Shown here: one piece after another, positions 48,837 through 53,059 of the stretch | Position numbering within the stretch: the first letter of the stretch is position 1 | Layout of the letters: every line of letters begins with the position of its first letter | NCBI RefSeq assembly: GCF_014647155.1 | Contig: NZ_BMOQ01000001.1 | Span: 310,001 to 374,000, forward strand | Reading direction: 5' to 3' | DNA length: 64,000 bases | From: Halarchaeum nitratireducens | Lineage (GTDB): Archaea > Halobacteriota > Halobacteria > Halobacteriales > Halobacteriaceae | Made by a program: the position numbers and the translations under genes | Notes under the pieces: generated by a model | The model's database searches: none | Seen by the model: the letters and a program-made list of their open reading frames with translations, nothing else | Told to the model about the DNA's origin: nothing

Positions 48837-49418
48837 TCACACGCCCGCGAGGAAGTTCGAGACGACGTCGTGGCCGACGCCCGTGAGCACGCTCTCCGGG
48901 TGGAACTGGACGCACTCGATCGGGTGCGTCTCGTGGCGGATCCCCATCGGGAGCGTCTCGCCCGCGTGCTCCGTCGTCGCCGTGACGGCGAAGCAGTCGG
49001 GGATCTCGGTACAGATCAGCGAGTGATAGCGCCCCGCCTGGAACCCCTGTTCGAGGTCGCGGTAGACGCCCGCGCCGTCGTGGTCGACGGGGTAGGCCTT
49101 CCCGTGGACGGGCGCGGGCGCGTGCCCGACCGACCCGCCGTACTCGTACGCCGCGGCCTCCATCCCCAGACAGACGCCGAGGGTCGGCACCTCGTGGCTG
49201 AGGCCGGTGAGGACGTCCGCGGTGACGCCGACGTCCCGCGCGTTCTTCGGGTGGCCCGGACCCGGCGAGATCACGATCGCGTCCGGCTCCTCGGCCGCGA
49301 CCTCGGCCGCCGTCGCCGTGTTCTTCAGCACCGCCGTCTCGACGCCACGGTGCTCGCTGACGTACTCGACGAGGTTGTACGTGAACGAATCGAAGTTGTC
49401 GACGAAGACGACCTTCAT
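48837..49418 (-). CDS. trpG: Anthranilate synthase component II (glutaminase)
   Basis: The 193-residue class I glutaminase starts with VDNFDSFTYNL, has PGPGHPKNA, the catalytic Cys in LGVCLGMEA and the His/Glu pair in QFHPES. The HQ that usually follows CLG is replaced by ME. It feeds ammonia to TrpE. It overlaps the end of trpE by 4 nt (ATGA) and is the last gene of trpDFEG. Confidence 0.92.
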   Translation of the reverse strand: MKVVFVDNFDSFTYNLVEYVSEHRGVETAVLKNTATAAEVAAEEPDAIVISPGPGHPKNARDVGVTADVLTGLSHEVPTLGVCLGMEAAAYEYGGSVGHAPAPVHGKAYPVDHDGAGVYRDLEQGFQAGRYHSLICTEIPDCFAVTATTEHAGETLPMGIRHETHPIECVQFHPESVLTGVGHDVVSNFLAGV

Positions 49419-50995
49419 CGGGACGCCTCCTCGGGGGTCCGCGCGATCGCGTCCAGCGCGTCGAGCACCCCGCCCATCTTCTTCTCCGTCTCCTCGTACT
49501 CGCTCGTCGGATCGGAGTCCGCGACGACGCCGGCGCCCGCGCGGACGCGCACGACGTCCGCGCCCGCCGTTCCCGCGCCGTGCTCGACCGTCGCCGTGCG
49601 GATGCAGATGGCGACGTCCGCGTCGCCCGTCCACGAGACGTACCCCACGCCGCCGCCGTAGATGCCCCGCGGCGCGCGTTCGAGCTCGTCGATGAGCTCC
49701 ATCGCACGGACCTTCGGCGCGCCGGAGAGCGTCCCCGCGGGGAACGCCGCGCGGATCGCGTCGAAGGCGTCGAGGTCGTCGCGCAGGCGGCCGGTCACCG
49801 TCGACTCGATGTGCTGGACGTGGCTGTACTTCAGTACGCGCATGAACTCGGGGACGCGCACGCTCCCGGCCTCGCTCACGCGCCGGACGTCGTTGCGCGC
49901 GAGATCGACGAGCATCGTGTGCTCCGCGCGCTCCTTCTCGTCCGCGAGCATCTCGCCCGCCAGCCGCCGGTCCTCGACGGGGCTCGTCCCGCGCGGACAG
50001 GTGCCCGCGATCGGGTTGTTGAGGACTTCGCGGCCGTGGACGCTCGTGAGCGTCTCCGGGCTCGCGCCGACGACCGTCCGCTCGCCGTGCTGCAGGACGT
50101 ACATGTACGGCGAGGGGTTGATCTCGCGGAGCGCCGCGTAGAGCCCGAGCGGGTCGAGGTCCCCCTCGCGCTCCCGCGTCCGCGAGATGACGCCCTGATA
50201 GATCTCGCCGTCGAGCACCGCCTCCTTGGCGCGCTCGACCGACGCCTCGTACTCGTCCCGTGGCCCCGCGCTCTCCGCCACGGGATCGAAGCCGCCGGTC
50301 TCGGGCTCTCCGGCCTCCGCGAGCGCGTCCTCGACGCGTTCGACCTCCGCGACCAGGTCGTCGTAGATCGCCCCGACGTCGTCCTCCGCCGGGTCGACGA
50401 CGGGCGTACAGACGAGCGAGAGCGTTCCGGTCGCCCGATCGAAGCGCAAGACGCGCGTCGTGAGGACGAACTCCGCGTCCGGTACGCGCGTCGCCGGGCG
50501 CTCGACACCGACCTCGTCGAGCCAGAGGTCGTAGACGGCGTCGTAGGCGACGAACCCCACGAGGCCGCCGTCGAGCAGTTGGCGTTCGCTCTCGGGGAAG
50601 CCCCGGCGCTCGGCGTCCGGGAACGCCCCGCGGAGCTGATCGAGGACGTCGCCGTCGCCCGGCGTCACGCTCGCCGCCGCGCGCGTGTCCGCGAGGCGCT
50701 CGACCGTCGTGCCGTCCGGCGTCGCGCTCACGACCGCGTCCGGGGCGTAGCCGACGAACGAGTAGCGCGCGTGTCGATCGCCCACCGCGTCGCGCGGCCG
50801 GAACGCCCCGCCCGGGTCGGAGGCCGCGGTCTTCTCCGCGGATTCGAGGAGGAACCCGTAGTCGCCGTCCGCGAGCGCCGCGTACGCGCCCAGCGGCGTG
50901 ACCGCGGCGTCGATCTCGGCCTCGGCGTAGACGACGCCCGGACCGTCGCCGGCCGCGCGCTCTGCGAACGCCTCGCGAGACACGTCGAACGCCAT
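49415..50995 (-). CDS. trpE: Anthranilate synthase component I
   Basis: The 526-residue protein has the chorismate-binding domain in its C-terminal half: NPIAGTCPRG, MLVDLARNDVRRV, FPAGTLSGAPKVRAMEL and GGVGYVSWTGDADVAICIR. The N-terminal region (1-220) includes the usual Trp feedback-binding part (LLESAEKT). It makes anthranilate from chorismate and ammonia, the first committed step of Trp synthesis. Its ATG shares a base with the trpF stop (TGATG). Confidence 0.95.
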   Translation of the reverse strand: MAFDVSREAFAERAAGDGPGVVYAEAEIDAAVTPLGAYAALADGDYGFLLESAEKTAASDPGGAFRPRDAVGDRHARYSFVGYAPDAVVSATPDGTTVERLADTRAAASVTPGDGDVLDQLRGAFPDAERRGFPESERQLLDGGLVGFVAYDAVYDLWLDEVGVERPATRVPDAEFVLTTRVLRFDRATGTLSLVCTPVVDPAEDDVGAIYDDLVAEVERVEDALAEAGEPETGGFDPVAESAGPRDEYEASVERAKEAVLDGEIYQGVISRTREREGDLDPLGLYAALREINPSPYMYVLQHGERTVVGASPETLTSVHGREVLNNPIAGTCPRGTSPVEDRRLAGEMLADEKERAEHTMLVDLARNDVRRVSEAGSVRVPEFMRVLKYSHVQHIESTVTGRLRDDLDAFDAIRAAFPAGTLSGAPKVRAMELIDELERAPRGIYGGGVGYVSWTGDADVAICIRTATVEHGAGTAGADVVRVRAGAGVVADSDPTSEYEETEKKMGGVLDALDAIARTPEEASR

Positions 50996-51666
50996 CAGGC
51001 CGACACCTCAGCACCGTCGGCGGACGCGCCTGCCGCGTTCGACACGAACGCCCGCACCGCGTCGTGGTCCTTCACGCCGCCCTCGGACTCGACGCCTGAC
51101 GCGACGTCGACCGCGTAGGGGTCGACCGCCCCGACCGCCTCCGCGACGTTCGCGGGCGTGAGCCCGCCCGCGAGGATCACGGGGACGTCGAGGGACGCCG
51201 CGAGGTCGTGCGTCGCCGTCCAGTCGTGCGTTCGGCCGGTACCGCCCGCACCCGATTCGTCCGTCGAGTCTACCAGCAGCGCGTCCGCGGCGTCGGCGTA
51301 CGCGCGTGCTGACTCGGGCTTCGCCGCGTCGACCGTCTTGACCAGCGCGGCGTCGCAGTCGCCGGCGAGCCGATCGATCGCCCCGACGTCGACGTCCCCG
51401 TGGACCTGCACCGCGTCGGTCCCCACCCGTTCGTGGAGCGCCGGGATCGACTCGATGGGCGCCATCGTGACGAGTACCGTCGAGACGAACGGCGGCACCG
51501 CCCCGACGAGGGTCGCGGCGCGCTCGGGACTGATCTCGCGGGGCGTGTCCACCGGCACGTCCACGATGAACCCGAGGGCGTCCGCGCCCGCGTCGACGGC
51601 CGCCGCGACGTCGTCTGCGTTCGTCAGTCCGCAGACCTTCGTGCGGGTCCGTCCGGGCATCGTCAC
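50995..51666 (-). CDS. trpF: Phosphoribosylanthranilate isomerase
   Basis: The 223-residue TIM-barrel protein starts MTMPGRTRTKVCGLTNADD, with the catalytic Cys in KVCGL. The acidic partner comes later in the barrel, and LAGGLTPANVAEAV (phosphate site) and DVASGVESEGGVKD mark the end. It converts PRA to CdRP. The GTG at 51666 overlaps the trpD TGA by 4 nt; an ATG two codons inside (51660) is a close alternative. Confidence 0.93.
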   Translation of the reverse strand: MTMPGRTRTKVCGLTNADDVAAAVDAGADALGFIVDVPVDTPREISPERAATLVGAVPPFVSTVLVTMAPIESIPALHERVGTDAVQVHGDVDVGAIDRLAGDCDAALVKTVDAAKPESARAYADAADALLVDSTDESGAGGTGRTHDWTATHDLAASLDVPVILAGGLTPANVAEAVGAVDPYAVDVASGVESEGGVKDHDAVRAFVSNAAGASADGAEVSA

Positions 51667-52670
51667 TGCTCCACGCTCGCGCCGCGGAGCGCGTCCAGCG
51701 TCTCGGCGGCCGCACCGGTGTCGATGGCGTCGCGCGCGGCGTCCACGCCGCCTTCGAGGGTGTCCGCCTCGCCGGCGACGTAGACGGCCGCCCCCGCGTT
51801 CGCCAGGATGACGTCGCGCTTCGCGCCCGTCACGTCGCCCTCGACGATCCCGCGCAGGTCGGCGGCGTTCTCCTCGGGCGTGCCGCCCGCGATGGCGCCG
51901 ATCGGCGAGCGCGCCAGCCCGAGGTCCGCGGGCGTGAGCGCGTACTCTTCGACGTCGTCGCCGTGGACTTCCGCGACGACGGTCTCGTCGTGGATCGTGA
52001 TCTCGTCGAGGCCGCTCCCGTGGACGACGAGGGCGTCTTCGGCCGGCATCTCCGTGAGCGCGCTCGCGATCACGGGGACGAGGTCGGGATCGTAGACGCC
52101 GAGGACTTGGGCGTCCGCGCCCGCCGGGTTCGTCAGCGGCCCCAGCACGTTGAATATCGTCCGCATCCCGAGCTCGCGTCGGGGCCCGATGACGGCCTTC
52201 ATCGCGGGGTGGAACGCGGGCGCGTGCATGTACCCGATCCCGTAGGTCTCGATGTGGTTCTCCACGGCGTCGGGCGCGGCGTCGAGGTCGACGCCGACCT
52301 CCTCCAGGACGTCCGAGCTCCCCGAGGACGAGGAGACGGAGTAGTTGCCGTGCTTAGCCACGGGAACGTCCGCCGCGGCGACGACGATCGCGGACGTCGT
52401 GGAGACGTTGATCGTGTTGTAGTCGTCGCCGCCCGTCCCGCAGGTGTCGACGAGCGGGGACCGGTCGGGATCGATCGTGATCGCGGCGTCGCGCATCCCC
52501 TGCGCGAAGCCCGCGATCTCCGTCTCCGTCTCGCCCTTCGCGCGCAACCCGGCGAGCAGCGCGCCGATCTGCGCGTCGCTCGCGCCGTCGAAGACGGCGG
52601 TCGCGGCGGCGCGTGCCGCCTCCAGCGTGAGGTCCTCCCCGTCGGTGACGCGTTCGATGTAGTCCTGCAT
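51663..52670 (-). CDS. trpD: Anthranilate phosphoribosyltransferase
   Basis: The 335-residue protein has DTCGTGGDDYNTINVST (PRPP site, about residue 74), KHGNYSVSSSSGSSDVLE, the anthranilate region AFHPAMKAVIGPRRELG and NVLGPLTNPA. It joins anthranilate to PRPP and is the first gene of the operon. The ATG at 52670 gives the family length. The upstream region (52671-52840) holds only the promoter and the TGTACA boxes described separately. Confidence 0.95.
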   Translation of the reverse strand: MQDYIERVTDGEDLTLEAARAAATAVFDGASDAQIGALLAGLRAKGETETEIAGFAQGMRDAAITIDPDRSPLVDTCGTGGDDYNTINVSTTSAIVVAAADVPVAKHGNYSVSSSSGSSDVLEEVGVDLDAAPDAVENHIETYGIGYMHAPAFHPAMKAVIGPRRELGMRTIFNVLGPLTNPAGADAQVLGVYDPDLVPVIASALTEMPAEDALVVHGSGLDEITIHDETVVAEVHGDDVEEYALTPADLGLARSPIGAIAGGTPEENAADLRGIVEGDVTGAKRDVILANAGAAVYVAGEADTLEGGVDAARDAIDTGAAAETLDALRGASVEQ

Positions 52671-52682
52671 GGTGGACACCGG

Positions 52683-52718
52683 TGTACGATATCGGCTTAT
52701 GATGTACAAGTCTGTACA
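52683..52718 (-). promoter_or_regulatory. Candidate trp operator: TGTACA boxes at the trpD promoter
   Basis: TGTACA occurs at 52703-52708 and again at 52713-52718, ten bases apart, and a near match TGTACG at 52683-52688 is twenty bases from the first. All three fall on one helix face. Minus-strand AT-rich elements lie at 52696-52700 (about -27 from the ATG) and at 52723-52727 (TTATA, about -55), so the boxes flank or overlap the core promoter. TGTACA is the known TRP box bound by TrpY in Methanothermobacter. Confidence 0.65.
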
Positions 52719-52840
52719 CCGGTATAAGCCTGTCGCGCTCACGGCGGGTGAGAGTCGTCCCCTCGCCGGCTCCGGTTCGAAACCTTCAACTGTGACCGGG
52801 GGTAACGGAGAGATGCGTTCGGAAGCACGCGACGCCGTGC

Positions 52841-52915
52841 GGGTTGGTGGTCTAGTCAGGCTATGACACCTCCTTGACATGGAGGAGGCCGGCGGTTCAA
52901 ATCCGCCCCAACCCA
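52841..52915 (+). tRNA. tRNA-Val (GAC)
   Basis: The 75-nt gene has acceptor arms GGGTTGG/CCAACCC plus A73, anticodon stem CCTCC/GGAGG with loop TTGACAT (anticodon GAC), T arm GGCGG-TTCAAAT-CCGCC and no intron or encoded CCA. A 24-nt copy of its 3' end lies 114 nt downstream. Confidence 0.96.
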
Positions 52916-53031: not shown

Positions 53032-53055
53032 GGTTCAAATCCGCCCCAACCCACT
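53032..53055 (+). repeat. Direct repeat of the tRNA-Val 3' end (candidate attachment site remnant)
   Basis: The 24 bases at 53032-53055 are identical to 52894-52917, the T arm and acceptor 3' strand of tRNA-Val plus two bases. Tandem copies of a tRNA 3' end are the usual scar of site-specific integration. The 114 bases between them (52918-53031) are too short for a functional element and hold no gene. They could be what remains after deletion of an island. Confidence 0.7.
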
Positions 53056-53059
53056 CGAC

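Follow-up and report, generated by a model that had tools for sequence, protein, structure and literature searches.

Phased TGTACA boxes over the promoters of both haloarchaeal trp operons, a probable operator for a TrpY-family repressor

In Methanothermobacter, the TRP-box consensus is reportedly TGTACA and TrpY bound at such boxes is said to block TBP, both points being ascribed to Xie and Reeve in 2005; in 2008, Karr et al. reportedly found that the repressing complex no longer assembled when the trpB2 control region carried insertions, an effect that fits helical phasing of the boxes. Regulators of the Lrp/AsnC type, such as Halobacterium LrpA2, combine a helix-turn-helix with an amino-acid-sensing domain, as TrpY does, and we know of no TGTACA array read by LrpA2. 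Repression of the Methanothermobacter trp genes by TrpY via TRP boxes is documented, and the same source covers a second archaeal regulator of trp and aromatic operons, Tar (TK0271) of Thermococcus kodakarensis, an activator with a TGGACA-N8-TGTCCA site upstream of BRE/TATA (PMC6737238). In Thermococcus, the TrpY homologue fails to bind the trp promoter (PMC6737238), and membership in the TrpY family alone is thus no proof of function.

The window, meaning the whole 64,000-nucleotide stretch of Halarchaeum nitratireducens DNA that was analysed, carries a trpDFEG operon on its minus strand (Table 1). An earlier note on this DNA had described two TGTACA boxes one helical turn apart, with a near-match two turns further on, beside the core promoter of the first trp gene. 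Coordinates and spacing proved exact: reading along the forward strand, a TGTACG is followed after 20 bp by a TGTACA and after another 10 bp by a second TGTACA, and the array as a whole is flanked by the TATA box on one side and the Shine-Dalgarno element of trpD on the other. Given the minus-strand orientation of the operon, the exact boxes form the TATA-proximal pair and the near-match, next to the Shine-Dalgarno element, belongs to the predicted leader. The order on the coding strand is BRE-like CGACAG, TATA box CTTATA, TGTACA, TGTACA, an AAnnCGAA-type stretch, CGTACA, GGTG and ATG. Transcription is predicted to start at the first A of the AAnnCGAA-type segment (52698) because this base lies about 27 bp from the TATA box, which places TRP box 3, 20 bp past box 2, inside the predicted leader.

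Table 1. Features of the trpDFEG operon, its promoter and the TrpY-family gene (positions in the window, except those of trpY, given as G000 and L205 coordinates)
Feature	Position	Strand	Remarks
BRE-like element CGACAG	52730..52735	-	strong conservation of C, G, A, C/T, A (columns -7 to -3) across 81 trpD promoters
TATA box CTTATA of trpD	52723..52728	-	T-T-A, columns 1-3, in nearly all of 81 promoters
TRP box 1, TGTACA	52713..52718	-	exact; at most 1 mismatch in 74/81 promoters
TRP box 2, TGTACA, 10 bp past box 1	52703..52708	-	exact; at most 1 mismatch in 69/81 promoters
AAnnCGAA-type segment, third register position, no box	52691..52698	-	column 30 A and column 34 C invariant
TRP box 3, fourth register position, CGTACA on coding strand (TGTACG on forward strand)	52683..52688	-	1 or 2 mismatches to TGTACA in 77/81
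Shine-Dalgarno-like GGTG	52677..52680	-	columns 48-51 conserved; 5-7 nt ahead of start codon in 77/81
trpD, anthranilate phosphoribosyltransferase, first in operon	51663..52670	-	335 aa; 91% identity to Halarchaeum acidiphilum product
trpF, phosphoribosylanthranilate isomerase	50995..51666	-	223 aa; function from sequence recognition and operon position
trpE, anthranilate synthase component I	49415..50995	-	526 aa; PF04715 match G000:C1:360420-360902, minus
trpG, anthranilate synthase component II	48837..49418	-	193 aa; function from sequence recognition and operon position
Host trpY	G000:C1:89941-90432; L205:1471-1974	-	167 aa; TrpY-family match

The arrangement resembles that of Methanothermobacter thermautotrophicus (trpEGCFBAD, trpB2) in having TGTACA boxes over a trp core promoter and a TrpY-family protein encoded in the genome; it differs in that the haloarchaeal trp genes are split in two operons, with one array each. 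The Tar site is another matter, since here the motif is TGTACA, the steps are of 10 bp and the position is downstream of the TATA box. No Tar-type TGGACA-N8-TGTCCA palindrome is conserved in the 81 trpD promoters considered below, where conservation upstream of the BRE-like element is near zero.

Two further features of the neighbourhood can be mentioned here. The outer boxes belong to an inverted repeat spanning 52679-52722, CCGGTGTAC ... GTACACCGG, which is probably incidental because it is not conserved in relatives. The trpD promoter also adjoins a tRNA-like gene (52838-52915) with a valine-type anticodon GAC, as judged by eye; a second copy of its 3' end, TTCAAATCCGCCCCAACCCAC, lies about 140 bp further along (53033-53057), in the manner of an integrated-element scar.

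TGTACA is over-represented in the window (5 occurrences vs 0.85 expected, with five or more reached in 0 of 100 shuffles), and the exact pair TGTACA-N4-TGTACA occurs a single time in the 3,141,185 bases of the host genome searched. Exact pairs were scanned for in 147 genomes of the phylum. Within the 33 haloarchaeal genomes of that scan, the trpD site accounts for 11 of the 13 pairs, and the reversed control pattern does not occur in the same 33 genomes. The remaining two haloarchaeal pairs lie upstream of a TFB gene (L178:1495-1510, genome G011) and within a gas-vesicle-like gene (L146:1501-1516, genome G014); having no trp gene nearby, both are probably due to chance.

Absence of the boxes from the trpD promoters of relatives would have spoken against a control site, and the outcome was the opposite. 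When 80 trpD loci from many haloarchaeal genera were aligned with that of the window, all 81 promoters could be laid out gap-free from BRE to Shine-Dalgarno, with a mean pairwise identity of 73% in the box region vs 31% in the flank upstream of BRE. Against a background of 0.0029 per position for six-mers within one mismatch of TGTACA, boxes 1 and 2 are kept at the frequencies given in Table 1, and the leader-side box 3 differs from TGTACA at one position in 45 of the 81 promoters and at two positions in 32. The third register position, one turn past box 2, was considered as a degenerate box and dropped, given that it carries 3-5 mismatches in every one of the 81 promoters; the near-match does stand two turns further on, as had been described. 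Of 145 haloarchaeal genomes searched with a 40-position profile on sequence alone, 142 returned the site, with essentially one strong site each. Loss of the site from the other three (G001, G021 and G139) was considered and rejected, as inspection of their trpD promoters revealed boxes in the same register and the misses reflect a limit of the profile search, so that all 145 genomes were either scanned or inspected with the same result. The two trpD loci of Natronorubrum bangense (L042 and L043), one plasmid-borne and the other chromosomal, do not differ in their promoter regions. Judged by this conservation, the trpD boxes are a real control site, present in all related genomes checked.

The other host trp genes, which the earlier note had proposed to search for similarly spaced boxes, turned out to carry the same kind of array at trpC. 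This gene, located on a different contig, begins with TTGTACAGATGCGTGCATTAGTGTACAGTAATGG, in which three boxes, the middle one degenerate, follow each other in 10-bp steps up to the start codon; the transcript is predicted to be leaderless. The three-box layout stands ahead of trpC in 29 of 30 haloarchaeal genomes compared. The exception is the small-genome haloarchaeon G021, where a three-box promoter of the trpC type is found between trpC and trpB (L180:1060-1110, G021:C39), ahead of the latter, from which it follows that the control site remained with trpB upon rearrangement.

Column profiles of both arrays correlate at lags of 10 and 20 positions, the lag-10 correlation reaching p = 0.0008 for trpC and p = 0.04 for trpD in permutation tests. 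Placement relative to the core promoter is not shared: box 1 of trpC overlaps the TATA box, whereas boxes 1 and 2 of trpD lie between TATA and the predicted start, and the distance from the first T of TATA to the start of box 1 is 9 bp in trpD vs 3 bp in trpC. The boxes are thus phased with respect to one another and do not form a fixed core-promoter element. A profile built from the trpC array placed its best site at trpC (at trpB in G021) in 39 of 39 genomes searched, with no convincing third target in those 39 genomes. In the host genome, the two profiles together returned only the trpD and trpC sites and, wherever strong matches in haloarchaea were set against gene positions, these fell on trp operons only.

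Related arrays are not limited to haloarchaea. In non-haloarchaeal methanogens of the phylum, exact pairs lie directly upstream of three trp genes (trpB2, trpD and trpC) and of the gene for ADH synthase, an aromatic-pathway enzyme. In one methanogen family, several genomes have TATACA/TGTACA/TATACA arrays in 10-bp steps past the trpD TATA box, and related arrays are found in methanogens at trpB2, at trpC and ahead of the ADH synthase gene as well as at trpD of another family. The occurrence at trpB2 of a related methanogen parallels Methanothermobacter trpB2. Phased TGTACA boxes ahead of the ADH synthase gene were seen in three methanogens (L162, L164 and L173, in genomes G152, G240 and G190, respectively), which suggests that the putative TRP-box regulon of these methanogens is wider than the haloarchaeal one. 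The reading covered the exact-pair loci other than L166 and L168-L171. Pairs at L155-L160, L167 and L175-L177, with no trp gene nearby, were taken as chance matches, which are to be expected because many of those methanogen genomes are AT-rich. No regulator gene was recognised beside trpE in 11 outgroup methanogen loci.

A search for a TrpY homologue, the other check that had been proposed, led to a host protein whose entire length matches NCBIfam NF053754 (TrpY_fam, TrpY family transcription regulator), at 233 bits with a cut-off of 180. Its C-terminal ACT-like domain matches Pfam ACT with E = 1.7e-5, just under the curated cut-off. All 145 haloarchaeal genomes carry a single-copy gene that matches NF053754 above cut-off. 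The same model gave matches in three of 14 control genomes, those of Haloferax volcanii, Methanosarcina acetivorans and Lactococcus lactis, with two of these matches exceeding the cut-off, and a direct protein search recovered relatives, a few of them weak, in 146 of the 147 genomes of the phylum. The segment around VDRRVVDSTT, the best conserved across lineages in an alignment of 17 TrpY members, is taken from its sequence pattern as the putative helix-turn-helix.

Differences from the Methanothermobacter protein and its gene are also evident, although the gene-level ones do not define the family. The second-codon tryptophan of Methanothermobacter TrpY has reportedly been proposed as a sensor of charged tRNA. 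All methanogen proteins in our alignment begin with Met-Trp, mostly as their sole tryptophan (three start at the Trp itself, the stretch being one codon short), whereas seven of the eight haloarchaeal proteins aligned begin with Met-Phe and have no tryptophan, G021 retaining Met-Trp. The second-codon tryptophan thus seems to have been lost in most haloarchaeal TrpY. Unlike the Methanothermobacter gene, which is divergent from the trp operon and autoregulated through TRP boxes, host trpY shares a contig with trpD at a distance of some 272 kb (trpY at 89941, trpD at about 362,700) and has no TGTACA boxes upstream.

We consider it very probable that the boxes are the operator of the haloarchaeal TrpY-family repressor. 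The proposal of a TrpY-type control site is well supported as an inference by the conserved trpD boxes, the trpC array and the TrpY homologue in the host; the identity of the binder, tryptophan as its effector and cooperativity are modelled on Methanothermobacter TrpY. The protein, with an N-terminal helix-turn-helix and a C-terminal, amino-acid-sensing ACT domain, would bind one TGTACA-like box after another at 10-bp intervals along the same face of the helix, between the TATA box and the translation start, occupying them cooperatively. With plentiful tryptophan, tryptophan-bound TrpY would assemble over the core promoters of trpDFEG and, at the second array, of trpCBA, where it would block TBP/TFB or RNA polymerase. 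With scarce tryptophan the complex would fall apart and both operons would be transcribed. In agreement with this mechanism, H. salinarum induces trpD1FE1G1 as well as trpCBA when aromatic amino acids are absent (PMC4162585). Counting against TrpY as the explanation are the Thermococcus homologue that does not bind, the absence of boxes at host trpY, in contrast to the autoregulated Methanothermobacter gene, and the trpCBA promoter of Haloferax volcanii, which PMC13147458, citing Large et al. 2007, presents as not tightly regulated.

Because TrpY is universal in the class, its co-occurrence with the arrays does not distinguish it from other universal regulators, and the same trp operator might be read by another protein, for instance the Lrp-type LrpA2 (trh1) or a further helix-turn-helix regulator. 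TGTACA is, however, the known TRP box of TrpY, reportedly described by Xie and Reeve in 2005, and in methanogens of the phylum TGTACA arrays mark trp and aro genes in genomes that also carry the TrpY family. Halobacterium lrpA2 (OE2776F) does respond to aromatic amino acids, increasing 14.9-fold in H. salinarum when these are lacking, and LrpA2 has been proposed as their regulator (PMC4162585), but its induction identifies a response and not a target. We regard a different reader of the boxes as unlikely.

Still less probable is that the conserved stretch represents an extended core promoter or initiator for general factors, such as a particular TBP/TFB pair, with no regulator site in it. The whole stretch does lie between BRE/TATA and the start codon, and columns near the predicted start are conserved; a general element would nevertheless hardly be confined to trp operons, as the strong profile matches set against gene positions are, nor would its distance from TATA vary between trpD and trpC while the 10-bp step stays, and one box is placed within the trpD leader. 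Least probable of all is RNA-level control, in which the trpD leader would act as an attenuator or translational switch, as the box abutting the conserved Shine-Dalgarno-like GGTG might suggest, for transcription is predicted to start downstream of boxes 1 and 2, and trpC bears the same array with a predicted leaderless transcript.

TrpY with its TRP boxes is a known kind of system. What is new, as far as open literature shows, is its apparent occurrence in haloarchaea with two operons and a fixed phased layout; as the earlier note had supposed, we found no description of it for haloarchaea in the open-licence literature, although one may have been published elsewhere. The haloarchaeal TrpY branch was left without an assignment in a 2019 study (PMC6737238). 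The present comparison suggests a likely function for a single-copy regulator carried by every haloarchaeal genome checked.

On the evolutionary side, we see an even chance that TrpY-read, TGTACA-like arrays in 10-bp steps over core promoters are ancestral to Halobacteriota and were retained on trp and aro genes through operon splitting and rearrangement, haloarchaea having then shed the trpY linkage, the autoregulation boxes and, mostly, the codon-2 tryptophan, leaving a free-standing repressor of exactly two operons. The operator layout is kept in phase throughout a class and is recognisable in related methanogens. TrpY binding at trpDFEG and trpCBA would make up a complete small regulon, predicted in genetically tractable hosts such as Haloferax volcanii, where trp genes and promoters driven by tryptophan are in routine use.
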